The notes beneath the pieces are model-generated. The model had not been told where the DNA came from. It worked only from the letters and a program-made list of their open reading frames with translations, and ran no database searches. Shown here piece by piece: positions 40,248 through 56,357 of a stretch of DNA of 64,000 nt; within the stretch, counting starts at the first letter, position 1, and every line of letters starts with the position of its first letter. The stretch lies in the NCBI RefSeq assembly GCF_001017125.1, contig NZ_JXOJ01000002.1:161033-225032 (forward strand), given 5' to 3'. This DNA is from Methanoculleus sediminis (GTDB taxonomy: Archaea; Halobacteriota; Methanomicrobia; Methanomicrobiales; Methanoculleaceae). A program made the position numbers and the translations under genes.

Positions 40248-40286
40248 CAGGTTTAATTAACAACCTGGCCGGGATAAATATATATT
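40248..40286 (+). promoter_or_regulatory. Promoter and candidate operator of Tup operon 1
   Basis: CAGGTTTAATTAACAACCTG (40248-40267) contains 6-bp inverted arms CAGGTT/AACCTG. A TATA-like ATAAATATATATT follows at 40274-40286, about 27-39 bp before the start codon. Partly similar GGTT-TTAAT-containing sites precede the other three transporter operons. Confidence 0.5.
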
Positions 40287-40312
40287 CCCGGAGCTCGTCA
40301 GAACGCGCTGCA

Positions 40313-41284
40313 ATGAAGATAAATGCGACTCATCTGGCGGCAGGCATCATCACGATCCTGCTCATCCTCGCCCTCTGTGCCGGGTGCACGAGTCCGGCGC
40401 CGGGCGGAAACGAGACGCCGGCCGGCACGGCGACGACCGCTCCCGCCGGCGGGGGAAACGTCCTGCGGATAGCCACCACGACGAGCCTGGAGAACACCGG
40501 GCTGCTCGCGGAACTCGAACGGGTCTACGAGGAGGAAACCGGTATGGACCTCCAGTTCATCGCCCAGGGCACCGGACAGTCGATCGACTCCGGCAGGCGC
40601 GGCGACGTCGACCTGGTGCTCGTCCACGCCCCGGACCTTGAGCAGCAGTTCATCGACGACGGCTTCGGGATCAACCCGCGGTGCATCGCCTACAACTACT
40701 ACATCATCGTCGGGCCCGAGTCCGACCCGGCGGGGATCGCGAACATGACCCCGGTGGAGGCCTTCCGGACGATCTACGCGGCCGGCACGAATGAGACGGC
40801 GGGTGTCGCCTTCGTCTCCCGTGGCGACAACTCCGGGACACACACCCAGGAGCAGGTGCTCTGGGAGCAGGCGGGCTACGATTACGATACCGAGATCCTG
40901 GACGCCGGGGCCTGGTACGTCGAGGCCGGCAAAGGCATGGGCGACACCCTGATCCTCGCAAACGAGCAGCAGGCATACACGCTCTCCGATGAGGGGACCT
41001 ATCTTTCGTTTGCCGACCGACTCGACCTTGCACCGGTCGTCGCCGAGGGGGCGGAACTGCTGAACCGCTACAGCGCGATCGCCGTCAACCCCGCACAACA
41101 CCCCGGCGTGAACGCAGAGGGGGCCGCGGACTTCATCAACTGGCTCACCACGAACGAGACGAAACAGATGATCGGTGAGTTCGGCGCCGAAGAGTTCGGC
41201 AAGCCGCTCTTCACGCCCCTCTACGCTCCCGAGTGTACCGAACCGCCGTTCAACTGCACCTGCACCGGAGAGGTGGCCGGATAA
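40313..41284 (+). CDS. tupA: Tungstate ABC transporter substrate-binding lipoprotein (TupA type), copy 1
   Basis: A 323-residue exported lipoprotein: signal segment and lipobox LCAGC (Cys25), then a Thr/Gly/Pro linker. The mature start LRIATTTSLENTGLL is the TupA hallmark oxyanion site; VSRGDNSGTHTQE and the TLSDEGTYL region also match. It captures tungstate (perhaps molybdate) outside the membrane for the permease and ATPase encoded next. It ends with an unusual Cys-rich tail (PECTEPPFNCTCTGEV). Confidence 0.9.
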   Translation: MKINATHLAAGIITILLILALCAGCTSPAPGGNETPAGTATTAPAGGGNVLRIATTTSLENTGLLAELERVYEEETGMDLQFIAQGTGQSIDSGRRGDVDLVLVHAPDLEQQFIDDGFGINPRCIAYNYYIIVGPESDPAGIANMTPVEAFRTIYAAGTNETAGVAFVSRGDNSGTHTQEQVLWEQAGYDYDTEILDAGAWYVEAGKGMGDTLILANEQQAYTLSDEGTYLSFADRLDLAPVVAEGAELLNRYSAIAVNPAQHPGVNAEGAADFINWLTTNETKQMIGEFGAEEFGKPLFTPLYAPECTEPPFNCTCTGEVAG

Positions 41285-41351
41285 GCGGCATCAGGGACGG
41301 ATGGCAGCCGCGGACCAAGGTGAATAACGGCATGACGGGGGTTGAGGGAGC

Positions 41352-42047
41352 GTGGTGAACGGGAACCCGATCATCGAGGGGTTCGTCGAGGCCATCGAGC
41401 TCATCATCACCCTCGACCCGCAGGTGGTGGAGATCACCATCCGCTCGCTCTACGTCTCCCTCACCGCCACCTTCTTTGCCGCACTGATCGCCCTGCCGCT
41501 CGGGGCGCTCATATACTTCTACGAGTTCCGGGGCAAGCACGCGGTCGTCTCCACGCTGCAGACGCTGTATGCGCTCCCCACGGTCATCGTGGGCCTGATC
41601 GTGTTCCTGCTCCTCTCCAACGTCGGGCCTTTCGGGTTTCTTCGTTTCCTCTACACCCCCGGCGGCATGATCGCCGCCCAGACCGTCCTCATCATCCCGC
41701 TCCTGATGGGGCTGACGGTCTCGGCGCTCTCCGGGATCGACCGGGACAAGCGCTACACGATCACTGCGCTCGGCGCGAGCAGGCTCCAGACGGTCATGAC
41801 CATCATCGCGGAGGCCCGGTTCGCGGTCATGTCCGGCGTCCTCCTGGGCTTCGGGCGGGCGATCGCCGAGGTCGGGACGGTGATGATCGTCGGCGGCAAC
41901 ATCCGGGGCGCCACCCGCGTCCTCACCACCGCGATCGCGCTCAACACCTCGATGGCAAACTATTCCCTCTCGATTGCACTCGGGATCATCCTCCTTGCGG
42001 TGGCGCTCGGGGTGAACATAGCCCTCTCCCTGGTGCAGCGGCGGTGA
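41352..42047 (+). CDS. tupB: Tungstate ABC transporter permease (TupB type), copy 1
   Basis: A 231-residue inner-membrane permease with five or six hydrophobic segments. The EAA loop appears as ALGASRLQTVMTIIAEARFAV. GFGRAIAEVGTVMIVGGNI is typical of TupB. The start is GTG at 41352 or 41355. It is 5 bp upstream of the ATPase gene. Confidence 0.9.
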   Translation: MVNGNPIIEGFVEAIELIITLDPQVVEITIRSLYVSLTATFFAALIALPLGALIYFYEFRGKHAVVSTLQTLYALPTVIVGLIVFLLLSNVGPFGFLRFLYTPGGMIAAQTVLIIPLLMGLTVSALSGIDRDKRYTITALGASRLQTVMTIIAEARFAVMSGVLLGFGRAIAEVGTVMIVGGNIRGATRVLTTAIALNTSMANYSLSIALGIILLAVALGVNIALSLVQRR

Positions 42048-42051
42048 TACC

Positions 42052-43137
42052 ATGACGATCATCGAAGCACACAACATCAGAAAATCCTACGGCAGCCTTG
42101 AAGTCCTGCACGACGTCGACCTCTTGGTCGAAGAAGGCGAGATCCTCGGACTCATCGGCCCGAGCGGGTCGGGGAAGAGCACGCTTCTGCGGCTCCTCGA
42201 CCTGATCGAGCCCGCGAACGCCGGGGAACTCTCGGTCTTCGGGATCGACACGGTCACGGATCGCGGCACCTGGCTCGACCTCCGCCGCCGGATGGGAATG
42301 CTCTTTCAACGGCCGGTCGTCTTCAACGCATCCGTCTACGACAACGTCGCGATGGGGATGCGCTACCGCGGCGCCCCGCGTGACGAGATCGAGCGGAAGG
42401 TGAAGGAAGCCCTCGAAGCCGTCGGGCTCTCCCGTTACATCAAAAGCCGGGCGCTCGATCTCTCCGGCGGCGAGCAGCAGCGGGTGGCACTCTCACGGGT
42501 GCTCGTGACCGACCCCGAGATCCTCTTCCTGGACGAGCCGACGGCGAACCTGGACCCGACATCCACCGCCACTATCGAGGAGATCGTGACACGGCTGAAC
42601 CGCGAGGCAGGAACGACCGTCCTCATAAGCACCCACGATCTGGCGCAGGGGCAGCGTCTCGCCCACCGGGTCGGGGTGATGATCGAGGGCACGATCGCCC
42701 AGACCGGGCCTTCCCGGGAGATATTCCGCGAGCCGAAGAGCCAGAGGATCGCCCGGTTCGTGGGCGTCCAGAACATCGTCCCCGGCCGGGTCGTGGCGCA
42801 ACGAGAGGGGCTCACCGTGGTGGAGGCGCAAGGCAAGGAGATCTTCTCGGCGACTTCCCCGCCCGCCGACGAAGTCGAGATGATCGTCCGGGGCGAAGAC
42901 ATCTCCCTGCACCGGAGGAAGCCCGGCTACGAGGAGGCGGAGAACCTCTTCCCCGCCACGGTCACCGCCATCGAGCCCACGGCCCCGTTCGTGAATGTTG
43001 CGGTGCATTGCGAGTGCGATCTCGTCGCACTGGTGACCGCGAGGAGGGCGGAGACCCTCGGCCTCGAGATCGGCATGGAGGTCTGGGTCTCCCTCCAGGC
43101 GAAGGCGGTCCACCTTATCCCGCAGGCGGGGCGCTGA
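42052..43137 (+). CDS. tupC: Tungstate ABC transporter ATP-binding protein (TupC type), copy 1
   Basis: A 361-residue ATPase: Walker A GPSGSGKST, ABC signature LSGGEQQRVALSR, Walker B EILFLDEP and the switch His in STHDLAQ. A C-terminal TOBE-like oxyanion-sensing region of about 120 residues (from NIVPGRVVAQREGLTVVE) suggests feedback by bound tungstate/molybdate. It pairs with the preceding permease. Confidence 0.92.
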   Translation: MTIIEAHNIRKSYGSLEVLHDVDLLVEEGEILGLIGPSGSGKSTLLRLLDLIEPANAGELSVFGIDTVTDRGTWLDLRRRMGMLFQRPVVFNASVYDNVAMGMRYRGAPRDEIERKVKEALEAVGLSRYIKSRALDLSGGEQQRVALSRVLVTDPEILFLDEPTANLDPTSTATIEEIVTRLNREAGTTVLISTHDLAQGQRLAHRVGVMIEGTIAQTGPSREIFREPKSQRIARFVGVQNIVPGRVVAQREGLTVVEAQGKEIFSATSPPADEVEMIVRGEDISLHRRKPGYEEAENLFPATVTAIEPTAPFVNVAVHCECDLVALVTARRAETLGLEIGMEVWVSLQAKAVHLIPQAGR

Positions 43138-43190
43138 GCCGGTATTGCCGGCCACATCTCCGGCCCCCGCCCCGACCGGCAGCACCGGGT

Positions 43191-43232
43191 AAACCAATTT
43201 GAGTTAACTCGCGCCTGAATGAATATATTTAA
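43191..43232 (+). promoter_or_regulatory. Promoter and candidate operator of the Wtp operon
   Basis: AAACCAATTTGAGTTAACTC (43191-43210) includes the perfect palindrome GAGTTAACTC. AATATATTTAA at 43222-43232 is a good TATA box, 28 bp before the start codon. Confidence 0.5.
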
Positions 43233-43259: not shown

Positions 43260-44351
43260 ATGAAATCAACCCGACTGTATGCGTTTATCTGTCTCATCGT
43301 CGCTGCCGCGGTCATGATCTGCGGCTGCACGGGGACAACGAACACCGATTCGACGCCCGGTGCAGGCAGCCAGACCACGACCCCCACGGCGACGGCAACC
43401 GCCGCCGGAGAAGTCCAGGTGAAGGTCTTCCATGCCGGCAGCCTGACCGGGCCGTTTGAGAAGGTGAAGGCAGAGTTCGAAGCCGATCACCCCGGCGTCA
43501 CCGTGCTCCTCGAGCCCGCCGGCAGTGTCGATTGCATCAAGAAGATCACCGAGAACGGCAAGCCCGCCGACGTCCTCGCCTCCGCCGACTACTACCTCAT
43601 CCCTGAGATGATGATCCCGGAGCACGCCGACTGGTACCTCACGTTCGCGAAGAACCGGATGGTCCTTACCTACTCAAACGACAGCAAGTACGCCGGCGAG
43701 ATCACCGCCGAGAACTGGTACGAGATCCTCGACCGCGACGGCGTCCGATGGGGCTTCTCCGACCCGAACTCCGACCCCTGCGGCTACCGCACCCCGATGG
43801 TGATCCAGCTCGCCGAGGCCTACTATGAAAACGACCAGATCTTCGAGACTCTTGTCAGCGAGCACAGCAACATTACCGTCACCGAGGCAGACGGCGTCTA
43901 CACGATCCACGCCGCCGACCCGAAGCCCGACAGCACCACCCTGACGATCCGCCCAAAAAGCGTCGAACTCGTCCAGATGGTCCAGTCCGGCGGACTTGAC
44001 TACGCCTGGGAGTACAGGAGCGTTGCCGTCCAGCACGACCTCGAGTTCATCGAGCTCCCCGAGGAGATCGACCTCTCGTCGATAGACTTCGCGGAGAACT
44101 ACGCGACCGTCCGGACCGAGGCGAAGAAGGGCGACGGCACCACGCTCTATGGCGGCTCCGCCATCGTCTACGGCGTGACCGTCCCGAAGATCGCCGAACA
44201 TCCCGACCTCGGCACCGAGTTTGTGGAGATGCTGATCGGCGCCACCGGACAGGAGATCCTCGAGCGCGACGGCCAGCCCCCGATCGTGCCCGCGGGCGGC
44301 TACGGCGACGTCCCGACCGCTCTCCAGTCGCTCGTCGAGATGAAGGCCTGA
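43260..44351 (+). CDS. wtpA: Tungstate/molybdate ABC transporter substrate-binding lipoprotein (WtpA type)
   Basis: A 363-residue lipoprotein with lipobox ICGC (Cys23) and a Thr-rich linker. VKVFHAGSLTGPFEKVKAEF starts the ModA/WtpA domain; ADVLASADYYLIP and WGFSDPNSDPCGYRTPMV are characteristic of WtpA. In characterised archaeal relatives the site binds tungstate and molybdate with very high affinity. A T-run follows its stop, before the permease gene. Confidence 0.93.
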   Translation: MKSTRLYAFICLIVAAAVMICGCTGTTNTDSTPGAGSQTTTPTATATAAGEVQVKVFHAGSLTGPFEKVKAEFEADHPGVTVLLEPAGSVDCIKKITENGKPADVLASADYYLIPEMMIPEHADWYLTFAKNRMVLTYSNDSKYAGEITAENWYEILDRDGVRWGFSDPNSDPCGYRTPMVIQLAEAYYENDQIFETLVSEHSNITVTEADGVYTIHAADPKPDSTTLTIRPKSVELVQMVQSGGLDYAWEYRSVAVQHDLEFIELPEEIDLSSIDFAENYATVRTEAKKGDGTTLYGGSAIVYGVTVPKIAEHPDLGTEFVEMLIGATGQEILERDGQPPIVPAGGYGDVPTALQSLVEMKA

Positions 44352-44417: not shown

Positions 44418-45299
44418 ATGAAGACCGGAACGCTCTCGAGCGACCCCCTCCGGGGGGATGGTGAAGCAGCTCCCTCCTGGTGGAGAGAGCGCGGGAGGCG
44501 GCATATCGACTGGTGCACCGCCGGGTTCTGCATCATGGGAGGGCTGCTCGTCGGCATCACGGTGCTCGCCCTCGCGAACATGGCGACGGCGGAACTCGCC
44601 GATCCGGTGCATCTCTTCAAGGTCGCGGCGTCGTCGGAGGTGATCGGATCGATCCTCCTCACGTTCGGCGCGGGGGCGAGCGCCGTCCTTCTCCTCATCC
44701 TCTTCGGAACCCCGCTCGCCTACGTCCTCGCGCGGTCCCGCCCCTCCCGCTTCAAGGGAGTCGTCGAGAGCATCGTCGACATCCCGCTCATCCTGCCGCA
44801 CACGGTGGCGGGCCTGCTCGTCTACCTCCTCTTCATGCGCCGCGGGTGGCTCGGTGCGCCGCTCTCGGAGGTCGGGCTTGCCTTCGAGGACGCGCTCCCG
44901 GGGACGATCGTCGCGATGCTCTTCGTCGCCTCGCCGTTCTACGTCAACACCATGCGGGAGGGGTTCGAGAAGGTGCCCGTCCACCTGGAGAACGTCGCCC
45001 GCACGCTCGGGGCGGGCACCTTCACCACGTTCCGCACGGTCACGCTCCCCTTAAGCCTCCGGCACATGTACAGCGGGGCCGTTCTTGCCTGGGGGAGGGC
45101 AATCGGGGAGTTTGCCGGCGTCATCATGATCGCCTACTACCCGTTCATCATATCGACGCTGATCTACTACTCCTTCACGACGGACGGCATCCACACGAGC
45201 AGAAGCATTGCGTTTACGGTCATCCTGGTGAGCTTCGGGGTCTTCTACCTCCTCCGGCGGATGACCCGGTACCTGGGGAGGTACGATGATCGCGTTTGA
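44418..45299 (+). CDS. wtpB: Tungstate/molybdate ABC transporter permease (WtpB type)
   Basis: A 293-residue permease with about six hydrophobic segments; the EAA loop is ARTLGAGTFTTFRTVTLPLS and the WGRAIGEFAGVIMIAYYP region is typical of WtpB/ModB. An N-terminal charged extension of about 35 residues precedes the first helix, so a later start is possible. It overlaps wtpC by 14 bp. Confidence 0.9.
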   Translation: MKTGTLSSDPLRGDGEAAPSWWRERGRRHIDWCTAGFCIMGGLLVGITVLALANMATAELADPVHLFKVAASSEVIGSILLTFGAGASAVLLLILFGTPLAYVLARSRPSRFKGVVESIVDIPLILPHTVAGLLVYLLFMRRGWLGAPLSEVGLAFEDALPGTIVAMLFVASPFYVNTMREGFEKVPVHLENVARTLGAGTFTTFRTVTLPLSLRHMYSGAVLAWGRAIGEFAGVIMIAYYPFIISTLIYYSFTTDGIHTSRSIAFTVILVSFGVFYLLRRMTRYLGRYDDRV

Positions 45300-46353
45300 C
45301 CGCGTCTCGCTCGCACTCGGCTCGTTCTCGCTCGACGACGTCAGCCTGACGATCGGTAAGGGCGACTACTACTTCATCGTCGGGCCGTCGGGTGCGGGAA
45401 AGACGGTGCTTCTCGAAGCGATCGCCGGCCTCCACCGGCCGGACAGCGGTCGCGTGCTCCTCCGGGGCACCGAGATCACCGCTCTCCCCCCGGAGAAGCG
45501 GAAGGTCGCCCTCGTCTACCAGGACTACTCGCTCTTCCCGAACATGAGGGTCATCGAGAACGTCTCCTACGGTCTTCGGGTGCGGGGGATGCGAAAGGAG
45601 GAGGCCCGGGCCGAGGTCGCCCCTCTCCTCGAACGGTTCGGGATCACCCACCTCGCGGACCGCTACCCGGGAACCCTCTCCGGCGGCGAGCAGCAGCGGG
45701 TGGCGCTTGCACGGGCCGTCGCGGTGAAACCGGACATCCTCCTCCTCGACGAACCGCTCTCGGCCCTCGACCCCGTCACGCAGGAGAAGTTCATCGACGA
45801 TCTCCGGCGGCTCCACCGGGAGGACGGTCTCACCATCGTGCAGGTGAGCCACTCCCGCCGGGAAGCGCACCTGCTCGCCACCCGGATGGCGGTGATCATC
45901 GACGGGACGCTCGTGGACGAAGGAGAGGCCAACGTTGTGCTGAACGCGCCGAAGAGCCGCGAGGTCGCGTCGTTCATCGGGGTCGAGAACATCCTGGACG
46001 GAACGGTGACGGCAAACGACGGCGGGCTCGCGACGGTGGCTGCCGGAGGGCTGGCCTTCGAGGCAGTGACCGACGCAGCGGCGGGCGAGGAGGTCACCCT
46101 CTGCATCCGGGCCGACGACGTCGTCGTCGCCGTCGGGGACCGCCCGCAGTCCAGCGCCCGGAATACGATGGCCGGGACGGTTCTCCGGATCGCAGAGAAC
46201 GGCCCCGTCGCCGAGGTGCGGGTGGACGCCGGCGTGGAACTGACTGCGGTCCTGACACGGCGGTCGGTGCGCGACCTCTCGCTCGTTCCGGGAACGCCCG
46301 TCACCCTCTCCGTCAAGGCGACGGCGATCCACGTCATCCGTTCTTTTTCTTGA
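45286..46353 (+). CDS. wtpC: Tungstate/molybdate ABC transporter ATP-binding protein (WtpC type)
   Basis: A 355-residue ATPase: Walker A GPSGAGKT, Q-loop VYQDYSLFPNMRV, signature LSGGEQQRVALAR, Walker B ILLLDEP, switch His in VSHSRREA. The C-terminal TOBE domain lies at about 235-355. The 3' end overlaps the frameshifted SemiSWEET gene on the opposite strand by 20 bp. Confidence 0.93.
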   Translation: MIAFDRVSLALGSFSLDDVSLTIGKGDYYFIVGPSGAGKTVLLEAIAGLHRPDSGRVLLRGTEITALPPEKRKVALVYQDYSLFPNMRVIENVSYGLRVRGMRKEEARAEVAPLLERFGITHLADRYPGTLSGGEQQRVALARAVAVKPDILLLDEPLSALDPVTQEKFIDDLRRLHREDGLTIVQVSHSRREAHLLATRMAVIIDGTLVDEGEANVVLNAPKSREVASFIGVENILDGTVTANDGGLATVAAGGLAFEAVTDAAAGEEVTLCIRADDVVVAVGDRPQSSARNTMAGTVLRIAENGPVAEVRVDAGVELTAVLTRRSVRDLSLVPGTPVTLSVKATAIHVIRSFS

Positions 46354-46638: not shown

Positions 46639-47769
46639 TCAGGTTCCGGACCGCCGGCCTTCCCACCACCGCATCGCATAGGCAACGATCATCCCGACGA
46701 TGAACGCAAACGTGAGGCCCACTATGAGGGTGAGGACGGCGATGACCCCGGTGACCAGGTAGGACTCCGTCTTTACGCTGTGCTTCCCGAGCTCGATCGC
46801 CACGAAGACCAGGAGCGCGCCGAAGACGCCGAAGGGGATGAGGGTCAGCACCTCCGGCGGAGCGAAGGCGACGGCGAAGACGAGGATGAATATGCCGGCG
46901 ACGATGTTCGCCCCACCGGTCCTCGCGCCGAACCGGTACATGGCGGCGAGCCCCCCGGCGCCGTGGCACATGGGGAACCCCCCGAGCGGCGTCGAGACCA
47001 GGTTCATGGCCCCGATCGTCCGCGAGAGCCGGTCGGGGTCCACGCCCTTCTTCGGGAAGAGGTCGTAGGTGAGGAGGGATGTCGCGAGGATGGCGTTCGC
47101 GATCGTGAGCGGTATCTGCGGGAGGGCAAGGTCCCAGGTTCCGGCGAGGAAGTCCGCCGGCATCGGGACGACCGGGACCGGAAGCGGCATCAGGCGGAAC
47201 GGCGGCATCCCCTGCACGGCGATACCGGCGGCAAGCCCGATGAGAAGGACCAGCAGGGCGGAGACGTCCGGAATCCGGGTGCGCTGCGACAGAACGAAGA
47301 AGACGAGGATGATCCCGATGGACACGGCTGCAAAGAGAGCGTCGGCGACGATGTAGCCGAGCGACGTCCTGAGGAGAAGGAGTGCAAGCCCCGCCTGAAC
47401 CCCCCGGACGACGCTTTTCGGGATATGCTCCCCGAGCCAGGTCATGCCGCCGACGAGCCCGAGCAGGAGGAAGAGCGCGCCGACGACAAGGCCCGAGGCC
47501 ACGATCTCGCCGGCACAAAGCCCTTCCGCGATGACGATGGCACCGATCGCCTTCATCGGTTCGATGGGGACGGGAAGGCGGTAGTAGAGACCGGCGATGA
47601 CGAACCACGCGGCGAGGAAGAGGAAGAAATGGCTGACGTTCACGTCCGGGCAGACGATGGCGACACCGAGCAGGATGGGAAAGATGGTGCCGAAGTCGCC
47701 GACAGCTCCGGCAACCTCCTCCAGGGTGATCCGAATGCCTTTCTCTTCCGTCCCGGTGCTCTCCGTCAT
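46639..47769 (-). CDS. MOT1-family molybdate/sulfate permease
   Basis: A 376-residue polytopic membrane protein, about ten to twelve segments, of the MFS_MOT1 type: VAGAVGDFGTIFPILLGVAI near the start, VPIEPMKAIGAIVIAEGLC, and GGFPMCHGAGGLAAMYRFGA. MOT1 proteins of plants and algae are high-affinity molybdate carriers; archaeal substrate is inferred. It lies between the Wtp and Mod operons, divergent from the latter, which supports a molybdate role. Confidence 0.85.
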   Translation of the reverse strand: MTESTGTEEKGIRITLEEVAGAVGDFGTIFPILLGVAIVCPDVNVSHFFLFLAAWFVIAGLYYRLPVPIEPMKAIGAIVIAEGLCAGEIVASGLVVGALFLLLGLVGGMTWLGEHIPKSVVRGVQAGLALLLLRTSLGYIVADALFAAVSIGIILVFFVLSQRTRIPDVSALLVLLIGLAAGIAVQGMPPFRLMPLPVPVVPMPADFLAGTWDLALPQIPLTIANAILATSLLTYDLFPKKGVDPDRLSRTIGAMNLVSTPLGGFPMCHGAGGLAAMYRFGARTGGANIVAGIFILVFAVAFAPPEVLTLIPFGVFGALLVFVAIELGKHSVKTESYLVTGVIAVLTLIVGLTFAFIVGMIVAYAMRWWEGRRSGT

Positions 47770-47948: not shown

Positions 47949-48767
47949 ATGAAAGCACACCTGCTTCTCATTCTTGCACTGCTTATCGCGGCAACCGCCG
48001 CCTTTGCATGCGGATGTACCGGAACCACCACCGATGCGCCGGGAGAGACCGAAACGGCCAAACCCGAGCTGCTCGTCTACTGCGGGGCGGGCATGCGCGA
48101 ACCGATGGACGAGATCGCGGCGACCTTCACGAACAGGACGGGCATCCCGATCAACTTCGTCTTCGGCGGGTCGAACACCCTGCTTACCCAGATGGAACTG
48201 ACGGAGATGGGCGACGTCTACATGCCGGGCGCGACCGCCTACTTCGATGCGGCCCGCGAGAAGGGGCTGGTCGAGGAGGAGCACCTGATCGTCTACCACG
48301 TCCCGGTCATCGCCGTTCCGAAGGGCAACCCGGCCGGCATCACCTGCCTTGAGGACATGACAAAGCCCGGGGTGCGGGTGGCTCTCGGCGAGAATCCCGG
48401 CACCGCCATCGGGCAGCTGACCGACAAACTCCTCGAAAAGAACGACCTCCTTACTGACGTGGAGAAGAACCTCGTGACCCGCAGCGGCACGGTGAACGAA
48501 CTGCTGGTCTACATCTCCATGGGACAGGCCGATGTCGGTATCATCTGGGAGGACCTCTACGTGCCCGAGAAGATGGATATCATCTACATCCCGAACGCCG
48601 ACAACCTGGTCAAGATCGTCCCCATCGGCGTGCTGACCTCGTCCGAGCACTCCACCGAAGCGGAGCAGTTCACCGCGTTCGTCATCTCCGAAGAAGGAAA
48701 GGAGATCTTCACCAGGCACGGTTTCATCACCTACCCGAGCGAGACCTACACAGACCTCAAACCCTGA
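47949..48767 (+). CDS. modA: Molybdate ABC transporter substrate-binding lipoprotein (ModA type)
   Basis: A 272-residue lipoprotein with lipobox ACGC (Cys23). ELLVYCGAGMREPMDEIAAT is the ModA start, with FGGSNTLLTQM and DVYMPGATAYFD giving the anion-site Ser residues; VRVALGENPGTAIGQ follows. Third distinct oxyanion-binding protein of the island. First gene of a four-gene operon. Confidence 0.9.
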   Translation: MKAHLLLILALLIAATAAFACGCTGTTTDAPGETETAKPELLVYCGAGMREPMDEIAATFTNRTGIPINFVFGGSNTLLTQMELTEMGDVYMPGATAYFDAAREKGLVEEEHLIVYHVPVIAVPKGNPAGITCLEDMTKPGVRVALGENPGTAIGQLTDKLLEKNDLLTDVEKNLVTRSGTVNELLVYISMGQADVGIIWEDLYVPEKMDIIYIPNADNLVKIVPIGVLTSSEHSTEAEQFTAFVISEEGKEIFTRHGFITYPSETYTDLKP

Positions 48768-48788: not shown

Positions 48789-49292
48789 ATGGAAGTCACC
48801 TACCAGATCATAGGAACCATTCACTCACCGTTCACCGACCAGGACACAACGCCCATCCAGAGCATCTTCTCCGAGGCGGAGGGGACGATCGAGGTCTTTC
48901 CCGAGTACGCCGACGGGCTCGAGGGGGTCGAGGGGTTCTCCCACATCATCCTCCTCTACCACTTCCACCGGGCGAACGGCTTCAGCCTGCGCCAGCGCCC
49001 GTTCGTCGACGGCAGCAAGGAGCGCGGAATCTTTGCCATACGCCATTTCAGCCGCCCGAACCCGATCGGGATCTCCCTTGTCGAGGTCGTCTCCGTCGAG
49101 GGCAACACCGTCCGGGTCCGCGGGATCGACGTGCTGGACGGCACGCCGCTCCTCGACATCAAACCCTACGTCCGCCAGTTCGATCACCGCGACGAAGTCC
49201 GGAGCGGCTGGGTCGACGCAAAGCACATCGAGGAGGTGAAGGTCCGGAGTTTCTCCCCAAAGGATCTCCGGGAGCATGAGGAGTCTTCATGA
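48789..49292 (+). CDS. TrmO/TsaA-like (UPF0066) protein inside the Mod operon
   Basis: A 167-residue beta-barrel protein of the TrmO family: YQIIGTIHSPFTDQ, GFSHIILLYHFHRANGFS, and RHFSRPNPIGISLVEVVSVE contain the SAM-binding signatures. Bacterial TrmO N6-methylates t6A37 of tRNA-Thr. Here it sits between modA and modB and overlaps modB by 4 bp, so it is translated with the transporter. It may have a Mo-related rather than tRNA role; this is an inference. Confidence 0.88.
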   Translation: MEVTYQIIGTIHSPFTDQDTTPIQSIFSEAEGTIEVFPEYADGLEGVEGFSHIILLYHFHRANGFSLRQRPFVDGSKERGIFAIRHFSRPNPIGISLVEVVSVEGNTVRVRGIDVLDGTPLLDIKPYVRQFDHRDEVRSGWVDAKHIEEVKVRSFSPKDLREHEESS

Positions 49293-50086
49293 ACCTGAAA
49301 AACTCCTCTTATTTTCGGATGGCGACCGTTGCGGTCGCACTCCTCATCGCGGCCTTCATCGTAATGGTCCTCGTCGGGGTGGTCACCCACTCCCCCCCGG
49401 CCGTTCTCATCGAATGCTTCCTCTCCGAGGAGATCCAGTTCGCCATCAGGCTCTCGATCATCACCTCCGTCATCTCGACGCTCCTCTGCATCCTGGTCGC
49501 CGTGCCGGTGGCCTATGCCCTCGCCCGCTACACGTTCCCGGGCAAGACGGTGATGAACATGCTGATGGATATCCCGATGGCGCTCCCGCCGCTCGTGGCG
49601 GGCGTGGGGCTTCTGCTCTTCTTCGGGGTATCTCCGGTAGGAAAGTCGCTTGCTGCCGCGGGGCTCGCGTTCGTCTTCACGCCGCTCGGGATCATCATGG
49701 CCCAGTTCTTCGTGAACCTGCCCTACATGCTCCGGGTGACCCGTTCGACGTTCCAGGGCGTCAACCCCCGCTACGAGTACGTGGCAAAGACGCTCGGCTG
49801 CACCGACGCTCAGGCCTTCTGGCGGGTCACGCTCCCGATGTCCTGGAACGGCCTCCTCGCGGGATCGGTGATCACCTGGTCGAAGGGGATCGGTGAGTTC
49901 GGCGCCGGGCTGATGCTTGCCGGCGCAACGCGGATGAAGACCGAGACGCTTCCGCTCTCGCTCTTCCTGAATATGTCCACCGGAAAACTCGAGTATGCCA
50001 TCGCTGCGGCGACGATCCTCATCATGATCTCGGTCGTCTCGCTCTACGCTTTCGAGCGCTACGGCGGAGCCACGCACGTCTACTAG
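49289..50086 (+). CDS. modB: Molybdate ABC transporter permease (ModB type)
   Basis: A 265-residue permease with about six helices; EAA loop AKTLGCTDAQAFWRVTLPMS and SKGIGEFGAGLMLAGATRMK are standard ModB features. It begins inside the stop of the TrmO-like gene and ends 11 bp before modC. Confidence 0.92.
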   Translation: MNLKNSSYFRMATVAVALLIAAFIVMVLVGVVTHSPPAVLIECFLSEEIQFAIRLSIITSVISTLLCILVAVPVAYALARYTFPGKTVMNMLMDIPMALPPLVAGVGLLLFFGVSPVGKSLAAAGLAFVFTPLGIIMAQFFVNLPYMLRVTRSTFQGVNPRYEYVAKTLGCTDAQAFWRVTLPMSWNGLLAGSVITWSKGIGEFGAGLMLAGATRMKTETLPLSLFLNMSTGKLEYAIAAATILIMISVVSLYAFERYGGATHVY

Positions 50087-50097: not shown

Positions 50098-51153
50098 ATG
50101 CTTGTCATTGACTCCGTATCCAAGAGCCTCGGAGAGTTTTCGCTCTCGAACGTATCGCTCTCGGTCGAAGACGGGGAGTACTTCATCGTCCTCGGCCCCA
50201 CCGGCGCAGGGAAGACGATCCTTCTTGAGACGATTGCCGGGATCTACACCCCCGATGCGGGCAGGATTCTCTTGAACGGCCGGGACATAACGGACGTCCC
50301 GGCGAGGGAGCGCAGGATCGGCATGGTCTACCAGGACTACATGCTCTTCCCGCACCTGACCGTCGAAGCGAATATCGGTTTCGGGTTGAAGTCCCGCGCC
50401 GATCCCGCGTTCATCCGCGGAAAAGTGGAGGAGAGCGCGGATCTCCTGAACATCGGCCACCTCCTCCAGCGCTACCCGGGCACGCTCTCGGGCGGCGAGC
50501 AGCAGCGCGCGGCGATTGCCCGGGCGCTGGTGATGGAGCCGGAAGCCCTGCTGCTCGACGAACCGCTCTCCGCGCTCGACGTGAAGACGCGCGAGAACCT
50601 CCGGGCGGAACTCGCCCGGATCCACGAGGCCACCGGGACGACGATCGTCCACATCACCCATAACTTCGAGGAGGTCTTCGACCTCGCCGACCGGGTGGCG
50701 ATCATGCGCGGCGGCGACGTGATCCAGGTGGGGACGCCGGAGGAGATCTTCCGACGGCCGAACTCCGACTTCGTCGCGGGTTTTGTCGGGGTGGAGAACC
50801 TCTTCTGCGGAACAGGCTCGGGCGACGGGACGGTCGCGGTGGGGGATCTCCGGATACGTGCGGAGAACGCCATACCCGGCCCCGTCTCCGTTGCAATCCG
50901 GCCGGAGGAGATCCTGCTCTCGAAGACGCCTCTGCCGGAAAACGGGAAAAACGTCGTCATCGGCCGCGTGGATTCGGTGCGGCCGAACGGGGGGCTGGTC
51001 CGGGTCTCGGTCGACGCCGGAGTGCAGTTTCGGGTGACCCTGACACGGCAGGGGTTCGAGGAGACGGGCGTCGCACCCGGCGACGCGGTCCACCTCGCCT
51101 TCCGGTCTTCGGCGGCCCACGTCTATCCTCCGGGAGAAGAGGAGGAGGCCTGA
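50098..51153 (+). CDS. modC: Molybdate ABC transporter ATP-binding protein (ModC type)
   Basis: A 351-residue ATPase: Walker A GPTGAGKT, Q-loop VYQDYMLFPHLTV, signature LSGGEQQRAAIAR, Walker B ALLLDEP, switch His in THNFEEV, then a TOBE-type domain (about 230-345). AGGAGG precedes the ATG. The 3' end overlaps a convergent small gene by 31 bp. Confidence 0.93.
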   Translation: MLVIDSVSKSLGEFSLSNVSLSVEDGEYFIVLGPTGAGKTILLETIAGIYTPDAGRILLNGRDITDVPARERRIGMVYQDYMLFPHLTVEANIGFGLKSRADPAFIRGKVEESADLLNIGHLLQRYPGTLSGGEQQRAAIARALVMEPEALLLDEPLSALDVKTRENLRAELARIHEATGTTIVHITHNFEEVFDLADRVAIMRGGDVIQVGTPEEIFRRPNSDFVAGFVGVENLFCGTGSGDGTVAVGDLRIRAENAIPGPVSVAIRPEEILLSKTPLPENGKNVVIGRVDSVRPNGGLVRVSVDAGVQFRVTLTRQGFEETGVAPGDAVHLAFRSSAAHVYPPGEEEEA

Positions 51154-51494
51154 ACGCCGCGCGCCTGAAGTGCCCGGAGGACACCGGCACCCAGGACCTC
51201 TTCTGCGCGCTCGCCGTGCCGCTCCGCCATGACCGCGAGGAGACGCTCCGTCCCCGCGGCCGTGGTGGAGACACCGACCCGCTCGGCCCGGCGGATCAGC
51301 CCGTCCCGTTCCATCTCCCCGAAACGGGGGAGGACGTAGTAATGCGGGATCCCGAGGTGCTCGGCAAGTTTCCGTGTCGTCGGGAACCGCAGCGAGATGC
51401 CGTCCGGAGAAAAGCCGACGGTTATGCACCGGTCCTCCTCGAGGAGGATCCTGACGGCCGCATCGATTATGTCGTCGTGTTCGTGTGTGGACAT
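51123..51494 (-). CDS. Small HTH-like protein, possible regulator
   Basis: A 123-residue soluble protein. TTRKLAEHLGIPHYYVLPRF followed by GEMERDGLIRRAERVGVST has the look of a winged-helix DNA-binding unit (recognition helix then wing). No effector domain is seen. It overlaps modC tail-to-tail and lies inside the Mo/W island, so a role in oxyanion-dependent control is possible but unproven. Confidence 0.55.
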   Translation of the reverse strand: MSTHEHDDIIDAAVRILLEEDRCITVGFSPDGISLRFPTTRKLAEHLGIPHYYVLPRFGEMERDGLIRRAERVGVSTTAAGTERLLAVMAERHGERAEEVLGAGVLRALQARGVQASSSSPGG

Positions 51495-51544: not shown

Positions 51545-51778
51545 TTATGCCGCTTCCGCCTTCATCTCGCCGCGCTCTTCTTCGGGCATCTCCTCGAGGT
51601 AGATGATCTCCGCTCCGATGTCCTTTGCAATCTGTTCGAGTTCTACCTTCCGAAAGTGGGTCCCCTCCACCTTCAGGTGCTTCGATTCACCCTGCTCTTC
51701 GACGACGGCGACGACGCGGAAGCGGGGCTGCTTCACGCCGGTGCCGACCTTCTGGCGTTCACGTGCGTAGATTTTCAT
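51545..51778 (-). CDS. Conserved-looking small protein (77 residues)
   Basis: Starts MKIYARERQKVGTGVKQPRF and continues with beta-strand-rich VVAVVEEQGESKHLKVEGTH, ending in an acidic, charged helix. I do not recognise a family. It is divergent from the storage-protein-like gene and shares with it the region carrying a triple 12-bp repeat. An alternative ATG at 51790 adds four residues. Confidence 0.65.
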   Translation of the reverse strand: MKIYARERQKVGTGVKQPRFRVVAVVEEQGESKHLKVEGTHFRKVELEQIAKDIGAEIIYLEEMPEEERGEMKAEAA

Positions 51779-51790
51779 ATCTGTTTCCAT

Positions 51791-51826
51791 CCCATACCAA
51801 CTGGTATACCAGCAGGTATACACCAA
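51791..51826. promoter_or_regulatory. Triple 12-bp direct repeat, GGTATAC core
   Basis: CCCATACCAACT, GGTATACCAGCA and GGTATACACCAA follow each other exactly. The middle contains the palindrome TGGTATACCA (51802-51811). It lies in the leader/promoter between two divergent genes, 13 bp from the minus-strand start. Likely a protein-binding array. Confidence 0.6.
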
Positions 51827-51870: not shown

Positions 51871-52677
51871 ATGGCAGAACGGTTTGAGATGGAATCGAAG
51901 TTCCGCGGCGAGAGCCTGGTCCGGCGCGGCCTGCTTCGCGCGACCAGAAGTGGCAAACAGGTCAGGATCATGCCCGACCTGAACGTGATCAAGATCGGCG
52001 GCCACGGCGTTATCGACTACGGGCGGGAAGTGATGTTCCCGCTGATCGACGAGATAGGGGAACTCTCCCGGAACAACAAGATTCTGGTCGCCACCGGCGG
52101 CGGTGTCCGGGTGCGGCACATCCTCGACGTCGGGATCGATCTCGGGATGCCGACGGGAGTGCTTGCGGAGCTGGCGGGTAAGATCAGCGAGCAGAACGCG
52201 ATCATGATGTCAATCCTCTTCTCGAAGTACAACGGTGTCCGGATCCACACCGACGACCTCTTAAACCTCCCCTCGCTCATATCCCTCGGGATGCTGCCGG
52301 TCGTGCAGGGCACCCCGCCCTACGGGCTCTACGAGCATCCCCCGAAACTCGGAAGCATCCCGCCGCACCGAACCGATACCGGCGCCTTCCTGATGGCGGA
52401 GGTGGTCGGCGGAAAGAACTGCATCCTCGGGAAGAACGTGGACGGCCTTTATGCCGAAAACCCGTTCGTGAACCCCGACGCCGAGTTCATCCCGGAGATC
52501 ACGGCCGACGAACTCCTGGAGATGGAGATGGAGGATATGGTGCTCGAACCGAAAGCCGTCGAGCTGCTCCGGGACGCTTTCCACGTGAGAGAGATCAAGG
52601 TGGTGAACGCCCACGTGCCGGGCAACATCACGAAGGCCGTCAACGGGGAGCGGGTCGGCACCATCATCCGGGCCTGA
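51871..52677 (+). CDS. Molybdenum-storage-protein-like amino-acid-kinase-fold protein
   Basis: A 268-residue amino-acid-kinase-fold protein (UMP-kinase related). NVIKIGGHGVIDYG, LVATGGGVRVRHILDVGIDL, GMPTGVLAELAGKISEQNAI and GSIPPHRTDTGAFLMAE, then LGKNVDGLY, align by eye with the MoSto subunits of nitrogen-fixing bacteria, which store polyoxomolybdate/tungstate in an ATP-driven cage. AGGAGG precedes the ATG. Its place among four oxyanion importers supports Mo/W storage or buffering; a nucleotide-kinase role is not excluded. Confidence 0.85.
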   Translation: MAERFEMESKFRGESLVRRGLLRATRSGKQVRIMPDLNVIKIGGHGVIDYGREVMFPLIDEIGELSRNNKILVATGGGVRVRHILDVGIDLGMPTGVLAELAGKISEQNAIMMSILFSKYNGVRIHTDDLLNLPSLISLGMLPVVQGTPPYGLYEHPPKLGSIPPHRTDTGAFLMAEVVGGKNCILGKNVDGLYAENPFVNPDAEFIPEITADELLEMEMEDMVLEPKAVELLRDAFHVREIKVVNAHVPGNITKAVNGERVGTIIRA

Positions 52678-52764: not shown

Positions 52765-53463
52765 ATGACTCTCTACCTTGGCATTGACGACACCGACACC
52801 CGCGAGTCCCGGGGCACCGGGCGGCTCGCCCGCGCAATTGCTGCAGAACTCGCCCGGTCCTACATGGTGACCGGGGTGACCCGACACCAGCTCTTTGTCC
52901 ACCCGGCTGTTCCCTATACCTCCCACAACAGTTCCGCGGTCATCCACATTCAGGATACCGGGAACGGGATCGCGGCCGACGTCTTCGCGACGGCAAAGGA
53001 ACTGATGCTCGCCGACTTCATCGAGGGGAGCGATCCCGGGATCTGCGTCGCCGCCGACCGGAACATCAACGGCGACCTTTCCCGCTTCGGCTTCTCGGCA
53101 AAGACAAGCGTCGTGACCCAGGATCAGGCGCGCTCGCTTGCCCGTGAGGCCGGAATCCTCCTCGAGGGGCTCGGCGGCACCGAAGACGGCGTCATCGGCG
53201 CGCTTGCCGGCATCGGCCTCGCGGCATCAGGGAACGACGGCAGGTTCGTCCAGAAGGGGACGACCCGGGACCTCCGCGGCAGCCAGACGGTCGCCGCAAT
53301 CCTCGCTTCCGGCGTCGACCGGGTCATGACCCGGGACGGGACGGCGGTCGGGGAAGGCACTATCTGCTTGCGGAAGTTCCCGAAGCCCGCGTTCATCGGC
53401 GGGAAGGCGATCCTCTACGTCGAGGCGGAAGGGGATGCCTACCACGATATCGTGGTAGGCTGA
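52765..53463 (+). CDS. TiaS-like ATPase-domain protein
   Basis: A 232-residue protein. TLYLGIDDTDTRESRGTGRL is the signature of the tRNA-Ile2 agmatidine synthase TiaS N-terminal (TCKD) domain, and GAIGALAG-like IGALAGIGLAASGNDGRFV follows. At 232 residues it lacks the OB-fold and zinc region of full TiaS (about 420 residues), so it is a single-domain relative. Preferred start ATG 52765; an in-frame start lies at 52699. Probably co-transcribed with the storage-like gene. Confidence 0.75.
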   Translation: MTLYLGIDDTDTRESRGTGRLARAIAAELARSYMVTGVTRHQLFVHPAVPYTSHNSSAVIHIQDTGNGIAADVFATAKELMLADFIEGSDPGICVAADRNINGDLSRFGFSAKTSVVTQDQARSLAREAGILLEGLGGTEDGVIGALAGIGLAASGNDGRFVQKGTTRDLRGSQTVAAILASGVDRVMTRDGTAVGEGTICLRKFPKPAFIGGKAILYVEAEGDAYHDIVVG

Positions 53464-53530
53464 AGAGCACATCAACAACATCTCATTTAAACTCCCGGAA
53501 TGTAAAATCGATTAATTATATTAAGTTTCC

Positions 53531-53557
53531 ATTAACCCAAAACACACCTATTTAAAT
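53531..53557 (+). promoter_or_regulatory. Promoter and candidate operator of Tup operon 2
   Basis: ATTAACCCAAAACACACC (53531-53548) precedes the TATA-like TATTTAAAT (53549-53557), 32-40 bp before the start. The reverse strand GTGTTTTGGGTTAAT resembles GTGTTGGTTAAT before modA. Confidence 0.45.
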
Positions 53558-53588
53558 GCACGTATTGCGATACATCTGTCTGATAACT

Positions 53589-54515
53589 ATGTACAGACGA
53601 ACTATTTTTGCCGTTGCGGCCGTCATGGTCGCCCTCCTGCTGATCTGCGGCTGTACCGGGACGACAACCGACCCGACCCCCGTGGAGAAGCAGCAACTCC
53701 GTATCGCCACGACGACCAGCCTTTACGACACCAAACTCCTCGACCACCTCACGCCGATCTTCGAGGAGAAGTACAACGCCGAGGTGCTGATCGTCTCCGC
53801 CGGGACCGGCAAAGCGATCGAATACGGGCAGCGTGGAGACGTGGACGTCCTGATGGTGCACGACCGTGCGCGTGAAGACGCCTTCCTCGCCGACGGCTAC
53901 GGCATCAACCGGCGCGTCTTCGCCTACAACTACTTCGTCCTCGTCGGGCCCGAGTCCGACCCGGCAGGTGTTGCGGGCATGCAGCCCGAAGCGGCCTTCA
54001 CCGCCATCCGCGAGACGGGCGTGGCCGGTGGTTCCGACGTAGTCTTCGTCTCCCGCGGCGACGCGTCGGGCACGCACTCCAAGGAGAAGGCCATCTGGAA
54101 AGCCGCCGGGTTCAACTACTCGACCGACGTGCAGGGCTCCGGCGACTGGTACCAGGAGGCCGGAACCGGCATGGGCGCGACCCTTGAGATGGCGAACGAG
54201 AAAGAGGCCTACACCCTCTCCGACATCGGCACCTACCTCGCCTACAAGGGCGACCTCGACCTCGTGACGCTCGTCGACGAAGGCGACATTCTGCTCAACG
54301 TCTACTGCGCGATGCAGATCAACCCCGCAAAGTACCCCGACATCAACACCACCGTCGCGAAAGACTGGGTCAACTTCATGATCTCCGACGATGTCCAGAA
54401 GGAGATCGACTCATTCGGTGTCGACCAGTACGGCCAGCCGCTCTTCTACGCCGCACAGGACGACTGGGAGAAGATCGGCGTGACCGAGGCCGAAGTGAAG
54501 GACCCGATCGCCTGA
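53589..54515 (+). CDS. tupA: Tungstate ABC transporter substrate-binding lipoprotein (TupA type), copy 2
   Basis: A 308-residue lipoprotein with lipobox ICGC (Cys22). LRIATTTSLYDTKLLDHL is the TupA oxyanion site; VSRGDASGTHSKE and TLSDIGTYLAY also match copy 1. Start ATG 53589 is chosen because the promoter TATA box lies about 32-40 bp upstream; an earlier frame would begin inside the promoter. Copy 1 and copy 2 are clear paralogues but diverged. Confidence 0.9.
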   Translation: MYRRTIFAVAAVMVALLLICGCTGTTTDPTPVEKQQLRIATTTSLYDTKLLDHLTPIFEEKYNAEVLIVSAGTGKAIEYGQRGDVDVLMVHDRAREDAFLADGYGINRRVFAYNYFVLVGPESDPAGVAGMQPEAAFTAIRETGVAGGSDVVFVSRGDASGTHSKEKAIWKAAGFNYSTDVQGSGDWYQEAGTGMGATLEMANEKEAYTLSDIGTYLAYKGDLDLVTLVDEGDILLNVYCAMQINPAKYPDINTTVAKDWVNFMISDDVQKEIDSFGVDQYGQPLFYAAQDDWEKIGVTEAEVKDPIA

Positions 54516-54536
54516 GCGGGCCAGAATCACCATCCC

Positions 54537-54541
54537 TTTTT
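54537..54541 (+). terminator. T-run between tupA and tupB, copy 2
   Basis: Five T residues 22 bases past the tupA stop. It may attenuate expression of the permease relative to the binding protein, as at wtpA-wtpB. Confidence 0.3.
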
Positions 54542-54571
54542 GCCTCCGGCAGAGTATAGTCAGGTGCAGGC

Positions 54572-55273
54572 ATGTACGAGATCATCGAGGGATTCCTGGA
54601 GGCAGCGAGACTCATTGTCACGTTCGACCCCGACGTAATGGCCATCGCCGCGCGAAGCATCATCATCTCGTTCACCGCAACGATCATCGCCACGCTGATC
54701 GCCGTTCCGCTCGGCGCCGCGATCAACTTCGGCACCTTCCCTGGAAAGAAGAACCTCGTCAACCTGATCCAGACGCTCTACTCCCTGCCGACGGTCATCG
54801 TCGGGCTGCTCATATTCCTGCTCATCTCCCGTGTCGGCCCGTTCGGGTTCCTGCGGCTGCTCTTCACCCCGACCGCGATGATCGTCGCGCAGACGGTGCT
54901 CATCCTCCCGATCATGACCGGGCTCACGATCTCCGCGCTCTCGGGCGTCGACCCGGTGATCAGGGATACCCTCCGCTCGCTCGGGGCAACAAGGCTCCAG
55001 TTCCTGGTAAACGTCTTGAAAGAAGCGCGGTTCGCGATCCTCGCATCCGTCGCGGTCGGGTTCGGGCGGGCGATATCCGAGGTCGGGGCGGCGATCCTGG
55101 TCGGCGGCAACATCGCGGCGTCGTCGTTTGCGAGTTCGACCCGGGTCCTGACGACCGCGATATCGCTCGAGACGTCGATGGGCAACATCTCCCAGTCCAT
55201 CGCGCTCGGTATCGTCCTCCTCATCATCGCCCTCGGCGTGAATCTCGCCATAACCACGGTGCAGCACCGGTGA
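54572..55273 (+). CDS. tupB: Tungstate ABC transporter permease (TupB type), copy 2
   Basis: A 233-residue permease, paralogous to the copy at 41352: both begin IIEGF-EA, with VQTLYSLPTVIVGLLIFLL-like second part and GFGRAISEVGAAILVGGNIA. About five helices; the EAA loop is SLGATRLQFLVNVLKEARF. The stop lies 4 bp before the ATPase start. Confidence 0.9.
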   Translation: MYEIIEGFLEAARLIVTFDPDVMAIAARSIIISFTATIIATLIAVPLGAAINFGTFPGKKNLVNLIQTLYSLPTVIVGLLIFLLISRVGPFGFLRLLFTPTAMIVAQTVLILPIMTGLTISALSGVDPVIRDTLRSLGATRLQFLVNVLKEARFAILASVAVGFGRAISEVGAAILVGGNIAASSFASSTRVLTTAISLETSMGNISQSIALGIVLLIIALGVNLAITTVQHR

Positions 55274-55277
55274 TTGC

Positions 55278-56357
55278 ATGATCGAATTCGACAACGTCTC
55301 AAAAAATTTCGGCGATACGAGGGTGCTTACCGGCGTCACCGGGGAGGTGAACCGGGGAGAGATCTTCACCGTCATCGGGCCGAGCGGGGCCGGGAAGTCG
55401 ACCCTGCTGCGCCTCATCGACCTCCTCGACGTCCCGGCAGGAGGGGCGATCCGGATCAACGGCCTCGACATCCATGCAGATAAGGAGAAGAGCCTCTCCG
55501 TCCGCCGGATGATGGGAATGGTCTTCCAGAAACCTGCCGTCTTCAACACGACGGTCACCGAGAATGTCGCCGTCGGCCTTCGGTTCCGGGGAGTAAGCAA
55601 GAGCGAAACCCGTAAACTGACCGAAGACGCCCTCGCCATGGTCGGCCTTGCCGGCTACGGGGAACGGCGGGCCCGAACGCTCTCGGGAGGGGAGATGCAG
55701 CGGGTGGCCCTCGCCCGGGCGATGGTGATCGAACCCGAGATCCTCCTCCTCGACGAACCGACGGCGAACCTCGACCCGGTCTCGGTGGCGATGATCGAGG
55801 ACCTGGTGGTGCGGATCAACCGCGACCTCGGGACGACGGTCATCTTCTCGACCCACGACATGTACCAGGGACAGCGGCTCGCCCACCGGATCGGGGTGCT
55901 GATGGACGGGGCGTTTGCACAGGTGGGGACGCCGAGAGAGGTCTTCACCCTCCCGGCAAGCCGGGAGGTCGCCCGGTTCGTCGGGATCGAGAATATCGTC
56001 GAGGGCGTCGTCGTCGAGAGAGAAGACGGCACCGCCGTCGTCGACGCCGGCGGCGTCCGGGTCAGGGCAAGGTCGCCGTTTCCCCGGGGAGAGAGGGTCT
56101 CTCTCTGCATCCGCTCAGAGGAGATCCGGATTGCCCCGGCGATCAGGGGGAGGAGGGTCTCCGACGGGAACATCCTCCCCGGCACGGTGACGGCCGTCGT
56201 CCCGCGCGGCCCGTTCAGCAGGGTGACGGTCGACTGCGGGTTCCCTCTCTCGTCCGTCCTCTCCTGGAAGGCGGCGGAAGATCTCGACATCCGCGAAGGG
56301 GGCCGCGTCGAGGTCGTGTTCGCGGCGGAGTCGGTCCACGCCGTCCGGCAGGGCTGA
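55278..56357 (+). CDS. tupC: Tungstate ABC transporter ATP-binding protein (TupC type), copy 2
   Basis: A 359-residue ATPase: Walker A GPSGAGKST, signature LSGGEMQRVALAR, Walker B EILLLDEP, switch His in FSTHDMYQ, and a TOBE-like C-terminal third. It has the same layout as copy 1, indicating duplication of the whole operon. Last gene of the island. Confidence 0.92.
   Translation: MIEFDNVSKNFGDTRVLTGVTGEVNRGEIFTVIGPSGAGKSTLLRLIDLLDVPAGGAIRINGLDIHADKEKSLSVRRMMGMVFQKPAVFNTTVTENVAVGLRFRGVSKSETRKLTEDALAMVGLAGYGERRARTLSGGEMQRVALARAMVIEPEILLLDEPTANLDPVSVAMIEDLVVRINRDLGTTVIFSTHDMYQGQRLAHRIGVLMDGAFAQVGTPREVFTLPASREVARFVGIENIVEGVVVEREDGTAVVDAGGVRVRARSPFPRGERVSLCIRSEEIRIAPAIRGRRVSDGNILPGTVTAVVPRGPFSRVTVDCGFPLSSVLSWKAAEDLDIREGGRVEVVFAAESVHAVRQG

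Follow-up and report, generated by a model that had tools for sequence, protein, structure and literature searches.

A molybdenum/tungsten locus in Methanoculleus sediminis with a single-gene storage protein homologue and a small conserved candidate partner

The stretch analysed here, called the window, comprises 64,000 nucleotides of the 2.49-Mb genome of the methanogen Methanoculleus sediminis, and it carries at positions 40313–56357 an island of genes for molybdenum (Mo) and tungsten (W). Within this island lies a single-gene homologue of the Mo/W storage protein MoSto (51871..52677, plus strand). On the minus strand, pointing away from it, are sORF81, which encodes 81 residues (51545..51790, with its start at ATG 51790 or 51778), and the gene of a small winged-helix regulator, wHTH (51123..51494), a candidate autoregulator. 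The spacer between sORF81 and MoSto contains two overlapping operator-like palindromes of the form ATACCARYTGGTAT (51794..51819, unstranded), one exact and one with a mismatch, 12 bp apart. Two Tup-like importers, a Wtp importer, a Mod importer and a MOT1-type permease accompany these genes. All of them, and the MoSto homologue itself, lie where the original prediction had placed them, and its description of a Mo/W homeostasis locus centred on the MoSto homologue is borne out. Four genes are to be added to its list: the winged-helix gene, the 81-codon gene, a TrmO-like gene and a TiaS-like gene. An Rfam search of the window at the gathering threshold returned nothing beyond one tRNA.

Overlooked at first, the stable core of the locus is MoSto with sORF81, usually together with the small winged-helix regulator. 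The neighbourhood was sampled in 20-kb stretches around MoSto, a few of them shorter, from 60 genomes of the order, which we take to be Methanomicrobiales: 20 from the genus and 40 from other genera. These loci were hand-picked, mainly by length of contig, and they cover 20 of the 25 other genomes of the genus with a MoSto match; the 3.8-kb loci L005–L034 were excluded from the neighbourhood counts. As some stretches stop within the island, importer counts are lower bounds. sORF81 is present in 58 of the 60 loci, wHTH in 51, MOT1 in 48 and the TiaS-like gene in 29.

The MoSto homologue and sORF81

The MoSto gene was identified by bit scores, conserved residues and trees. Its product scores 222 bits against the solved MoSto beta subunit, at most 162 against the alpha subunit and 44 against the best UMP kinase. 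The UMP kinase of the same genome is encoded elsewhere and reaches 266 bits in a test in which MoSto reaches 58; this separate gene and the gap between 222 and 44 bits rule out that the MoSto gene is a UMP kinase. Residues K41, G43, G44, T168, D169 and K188, presumably those of the amino-acid-kinase ATP site, are invariant among 41 MoSto homologues, and the beta subunit has the same letters at the aligned places. A tree of 77 proteins separates the four archaeal UMP kinases that it includes from single-gene MoSto, MosA and MosB (100/100). The protein also matches PF00696, the amino-acid-kinase fold family, and this match, together with the retained residues of the kinase-type ATP site, would suit a kinase of some other small molecule that merely resembles MoSto. 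Such an enzyme is very improbable, given the score gap, the grouping with MosA/MosB instead of UMP kinase, and the Mo/W importers that surround the gene in most of the 60 loci.

The genome has one MoSto gene, which falls outside the MosA and MosB groups, and no two-subunit pair. Its nearest named relatives, at 95–96% identity, belong to Methanoculleus species. In a smaller tree MosA and MosB each form one group and jointly split off from all single-gene rows (100/99), while in the larger tree the MosA/MosB group falls, on long branches, among the single-gene rows (83/90), so that the single-gene proteins may or may not be one clade. The ten bacterial single-gene rows group as a single clade (100/99) inside the archaeal rows, which suggests a transfer, although some deeper forks are weak. 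The tandem MoSto copies found in one archaeal family (f4) are a separate duplication (100/99), distinct from MosA/MosB.

Co-occurrence of MoSto and sORF81 was counted in 392 genomes of the phylum, presumably Halobacteriota (MoSto threshold E ≤1e-40), and in 127 genomes of the order of Geobacter argillaceus (E ≤1e-30). The phylum sample holds MoSto in 67 genomes and sORF81 in 70: both occur in 67, sORF81 alone in 3 and neither in 322. The three genomes with sORF81 alone (G138, G147 and G161) have completeness values of 85, 80 and 70%. Within the methanogen order, whose size in the sample (83 genomes) was taken from the sorted genome list, both genes are found in 58 genomes and neither in 25, with no discordant case. 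By our own count, presence and absence of the pair coexist within 8 genera of the order, which points to repeated gains or losses, always joint in the sample. In the Geobacter argillaceus order single-gene MoSto is found in 29 of the 127 genomes, and sORF81 accompanies it in 29 of 29; it lies on the same strand, up to about 190 bp downstream of MoSto, in 27 of them and on another contig in 2. The only genome of that order with a mosA/mosB pair (G548) is without sORF81, and no sORF81 match was found beside mosAB in two plasmid loci from Azospirillum (16.8 kb each), the chromosomes not having been searched. From 207 relatives 80 named MoSto loci were retained, and in 75 of these the fetched DNA includes sORF81. 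Four of the five exceptions come from genomes that have sORF81 elsewhere (all 12 genomes checked were positive), and the fifth (L173) shares its isolate of origin with L154, where sORF81 is present.

Linkage of the two genes is kept across gene orders that differ by lineage, being divergent, co-directional both ways or convergent. In 58 archaeal loci sORF81 is divergent and adjacent to MoSto in 50, just upstream on the same strand in 3, about 1 kb off in 2 and 3.7–9 kb off in 3. In L132 (Methanocellales) and L136 (Methanomicrobia) wHTH and sORF81 lie downstream and face MoSto. Six loci of one family with tandem MoSto genes (L060, L061, L064, L069, L070 and L091) have two sORF81 genes each, one divergent per MoSto. 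That linkage survives this reshuffling argues that MoSto is the partner of sORF81. Six MoSto-adjacent genes from the bacterial loci L151 and L138 match no Mo-related Pfam family. A MoSto remnant with an internal stop lies beside an intact sORF81 at G103:C1:954000-954649.

sORF81 itself is identified by alignments, by this co-occurrence and by third-codon-position bias. Compared with 20 relatives from the genus, in pairs that are not independent, it shows 95, 39 and 388 substitutions at first, second and third codon positions; 360 of the codon changes are silent and 99 replacing. This excess of third-position and silent changes means that sORF81 behaves as a real gene. Invariant in 51 archaeal rows are K6, R10, R12, K14, P22, A28, H45, R47, K48, E50 and E52. 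In a 15-row alignment that includes the Geobacter order, Desulfuromonadales, an Anaeromyxobacter metagenome-assembled genome (MAG) and two Borrarchaeum MAGs, nine residues (I, R, R, K, P, A, H, R and E) are invariant at these places or next to them, as is a GA pair. No credible match was found in Pfam to E 10, in NCBIfam to E 0.5 or in PDB by sequence. The predicted model is poor (predicted local distance difference test, pLDDT, 66), and of the 45 rows in the weak structural list obtained with it 31 are complex I chains (Z 3.0–4.1), presumably NDUFS4, a likeness that is at most a lead; the top row (Z 4.8) is unrelated. No NDUFS4-named Pfam family is among the matches of 51 sORF81 members to E 10, a search in which HMMER filters lose weak matches.

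The winged-helix regulator and its proposed palindromic site

The wHTH protein has 123 residues and an AlphaFold model of pLDDT 88.7, in which a winged helix is likely. It has no Pfam match, and its top Foldseek hits are winged helices of the DtxR type; this likeness to DtxR/MntR is weak (TM score about 0.4–0.5, E 0.003 or worse), and the protein presumably lacks the length for the metal-binding and SH3-like parts that DtxR has.

The palindrome is conserved in the spacer between the core genes. Counting the window, a ATACCARYTGGTAT core (at least 11 of 14) is present in 49 of 57 sORF81–MoSto spacers; 100 shuffles gave 0.87 on average and 4 at most. The eight spacers without a site are those of two loci from wHTH-less genomes and six second spacers of tandem loci. 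When wHTH is present, in the locus or in the genome (55 loci), the site lies within 200 bp of sORF81 in 54 and farther off, across a long spacer, in L076; in loci without wHTH it precedes sORF81 in 0 of 3. Where sORF81 has been relocated from MoSto (L057, L058, L084 and L085), the site stays before sORF81. Seven bacterial loci yielded a single site of 14.2 bits (L151), which stands before neither sORF81 nor MoSto. In the genome of the window the pattern, with at most one mismatch, occurs only at the two overlapping places of the spacer, and a control pattern read backward gave one match per strand.

At a weaker threshold the 60 loci give 152 hits: 101 fall at sORF81 or MoSto, 27 lie ahead of Tup genes and 17 fall at none of the listed genes. 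Apart from 2 marginal cases among 10 WtpA sites, the importers of the genus have no such site before them; outside the genus it is found in 10 of 21 TupA2 upstream regions. Five loci of a Methanoregulaceae-like family, f5 (L059, L062, L065, L067 and L092), have operator pairs 12 bp apart before TupB- or TupA-type genes, and tungstate import in these loci may come under the regulator. That the operator governs the whole island in the genome of the window is unsupported, as the conserved site lies only between sORF81 and MoSto. From this distribution we infer that wHTH binds the palindrome and would repress its own operon and MoSto.

The small protein might alternatively serve the regulator, for instance as a metal sensor or an anti-repressor, and not MoSto. 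In most archaeal loci the two genes lie side by side on one strand and probably share a transcript. Yet sORF81 and MoSto persist together where no wHTH was detected, in three genomes of the order (G002, G008 and G019) and three of another family (G136, G145 and G154), and no wHTH was found in ten bacterial MoSto loci. A role towards the regulator is thus quite unlikely.

The importers beside the MoSto homologue

The island opens, all on the plus strand, with a TupA1-like tungstate-binding protein (40313..41284), a TupB1-like permease (41352..42047) and a TupC1-like ATPase with a TOBE domain (42052..43137; PF00005, PF03459). The second such system closes it, also on the plus strand, with a TupA2-like tungstate-binding protein (53556..54515), a TupB2-like permease (54572..55273) and a TupC2-like ATPase with a TOBE domain (55278..56357). 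TupA1 and TupA2 match the TupA model alone, below its cut-off (NF041772, 199 and 186 bits, cut-off 400). Both permeases pass the general model NF038017, and they score 165 and 162 bits against the TupB model, with a cut-off of 320. Because the TupA and TupB equivalog cut-offs are missed in both systems, they are called Tup-like. The closest solved relatives of the two binding proteins are of the TupA type (3lr1, 5my5 and 3muq, with 5my5 and 3lr1 listed for TupA1 and 3lr1 for TupA2), and only 3lr1 is titled tungstate-binding. Identities between the two systems are 45% (A), 61% (B) and 47% (C), by which they are old paralogues as far as sequence comparison can tell. In seven loci of the genus (L040, L045, L046, L048, L050, L051 and L054) TupA1-like genes are doubled in tandem ahead of TupB1.

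The Wtp system, likewise on the plus strand, comprises the molybdate/tungstate-binding protein WtpA (43260..44351; PDB 3k6u and 2onk), the permease WtpB (44418..45299) and the ATPase WtpC with its TOBE domain (45286..46353; PF03459). WtpA passes two NCBIfam equivalogs, TIGR03730 and NF003196, with 427 and 401 bits against cut-offs of 355 and 243. The best family for WtpB is NF040839 (233 bits, cut-off 340), and WtpC has 371 bits against NF040840 (cut-off 440). On the minus strand follows the MOT1-type molybdate permease (46639..47769), which passes PF16983 in two stretches (171.5 bits, cut-off 30).

The Mod system, on the plus strand, begins with the molybdate-binding protein ModA (47949..48767), which passes TIGR01256 (87.6 bits, cut-off 62.5) and matches ModA chains in PDB (top 60 bits). 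It continues with the permease ModB (49289..50086), which passes TIGR01581 (257 bits, cut-off 210) and just misses TIGR02141 (177.7 bits, cut-off 182.6), and with an ATPase with a TOBE_2 domain (50098..51153). The latter is named ModC by position; it misses the ModC model TIGR02142 (207 bits, cut-off 285) and scores highest against the WtpC model (410 bits, cut-off 440). None of the four importer ATPases reaches an equivalog cut-off among the matches listed. Two more ModA-type binding proteins lie off the island in the same genome, G000 (C1:450022-450717 and C1:61542-62198), so the island may not contain every importer.

Between ModA and ModB lies a TrmO-like gene (48789..49292, plus strand) that passes TIGR00104. 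This placement recurs in 20 of 32 TrmO-bearing loci, at most 15 bp from ModB in 19 of the 20 by hand count, and in one locus TrmO stands between WtpA and WtpB instead. Downstream of MoSto, a TiaS-like TCKD-domain protein is encoded (52765..53463, plus strand; TIGR03280 51 bits, TiaS 36 bits, both below cut-off), and its gene is present in 19 of the 20 genus loci and in 10 of the 40 others. Before importer operons, at 40174–40312, 43138–43259 and 47770–47948, there are AT-rich stretches that look palindromic by eye and may be sites for a second regulator.

The original prediction also held that the four importers are tuned to different anions or concentrations and form, with capture and storage, one integrated module that works as a unit. 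When synteny was followed through genus and order, part of this picture stood: MoSto, Tup2 and MOT1 are kept in all 20 genus loci, as are sORF81 and wHTH. The full set of four importers, MOT1 and MoSto did not; besides the window it is found in 4 of the 20 genus loci, where Tup1 is present in 17, Wtp in 9 and Mod in 8, and in none of the 40 others. The joint presence of all genes in the window and in four close relatives, the constancy of Tup2 and MOT1 in the genus and the operator before Tup genes in some other families would fit such a module. Set against them are the absence of the full set outside the genus, the lack of an operator before the importers of the window and the ModA-type proteins off the island, and an integrated four-importer module is unlikely. 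The redundancy of importers looks like lineage-specific accumulation; as far as the gene content tells, they would act as exchangeable supply cassettes gathered beside the store, around a stable core.

Interpretation and comparison with known systems

Taking the gene identities, the co-occurrence, the linkage and the conservation of the operator as observed, we read the locus as a single-gene variant of molybdenum storage that would have an obligate new partner and its own autoregulator. It is fairly probable that it is a Mo/W homeostasis locus of MoSto, sORF81 and autoregulator, with the importers as cassettes. In the proposed model, the single-gene MoSto would assemble into an ATP-driven cage in which molybdate or tungstate is laid down as polyoxometalate. 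sORF81, with its conserved Lys, Arg and His and its joint inheritance with MoSto, would act on MoSto in loading, gating or release. On its ATACCARYTGGTAT sites, wHTH would repress the divergent promoters of sORF81–wHTH and MoSto, and Tup-like, Wtp, Mod and MOT1 would be interchangeable supply beside the store. Going further, and with less than even confidence, the locus may represent a second type of storage machine, found in methanogens, in Borrarchaeum (presumably an Asgard lineage) and in the Geobacter order, where sORF81 would stand in for the split of tasks between MosA and MosB, perhaps as a polyoxometalate gate or loader.

Several points weigh against the storage-core interpretation. 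All co-occurrence counts ignore shared ancestry, and the MoSto–sORF81 pair may simply have been transferred together. Two of the 67 MoSto matches in the phylum are fragments (G103, with a stop, and G154). An sORF81 match without MoSto occurs in two genomes of the Geobacter order, a remnant with a stop in G511 and a case at a contig end in G547; in that order, too, the sORF81 match crosses a stop in G512 and G559, and MoSto is split in two in G464. Additional sORF81 copies are present in some genomes (G432, G434, G435, G535 and G563). As to the regulator, wHTH occurs without MoSto in three genomes and MoSto without wHTH in six, and the operator is missing from the second sORF81–MoSto spacer in the six tandem loci. 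Finally, as sORF81 has no reliable fold and no family match, its MoSto-directed role is guilt by association.

The obvious users of the stored metal are the Mo/W-pterin enzymes of methanogenesis, and these, not nitrogenase, are most likely what the methanogen store serves. The genome of the window has no nifD above the cut-off. Among genomes of the order MoSto is found in 7 of 16 with nifD and in 51 of 67 without (Fisher p 0.016, ancestry ignored), which makes nitrogenase an unlikely reason for the store there; a link between the two in the methanogen order is unsupported by these counts. An Azotobacter-style store for nitrogenase would have its precedent in A. vinelandii, where MoSto gives Mo for the synthesis of the iron-molybdenum cofactor, FeMo-co (PMC6448029). 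Given that nifD-positive genomes of the order carry MoSto more rarely, such a store is extremely unlikely here.

Among the matches listed, no literature on MoSto in methanogens was found in titles and abstract openings, and nothing was found on sORF81, a nameless gene that is hardly searchable. Compared with A. vinelandii MosA/MosB, the MoSto of the window is homologous over almost the full length and has the ATP-site residues in common. It differs in being encoded by one gene instead of two, in its association with sORF81, in its split from the MosA/MosB rows in the smaller tree, and in not being tied to nitrogenase in the order. A description of 2019 gives MosAB as an (alpha beta)3 complex, able to take up W as well and without known homologues in protein databases (PMC6448029).

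The TOBE-domain storage proteins Tub, Mop and ModG are likewise small proteins of intracellular Mo/W storage (PMC11980592). sORF81 differs from them, having no TOBE family among its Pfam matches to E 10, and the store itself is here a homologue of a cage with the amino-acid-kinase fold. As to supply, TupABC, WtpABC, ModABC and MOT1 have been surveyed, and many Mo-using prokaryotes have at least two ABC types (PMC6147048). In the table of that survey MOT1 is entered as a dash for both archaea and bacteria, and its text nowhere uses the word 'storage' (PMC6147048). The window has the same importer families as the survey, with the difference that here MOT1 and MoSto accompany three importer types.

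The novelty relative to these systems is that MoSto comes as one gene, almost never parted from an uncharacterised partner and accompanied by a conserved, presumably autoregulatory site. Its breadth, with 58 of 83 genomes in the methanogen order and 29 of 127 in the Geobacter order, makes ATP-driven Mo/W storage a likely part of the metal economy of methanogenesis, and the core suggests an unrecognised part of scarce-metal storage in these microbes. The operator offers an entry point to the control of a metal store in methanogens, and sORF81 is a testable candidate for the loading or emptying of such a cage.

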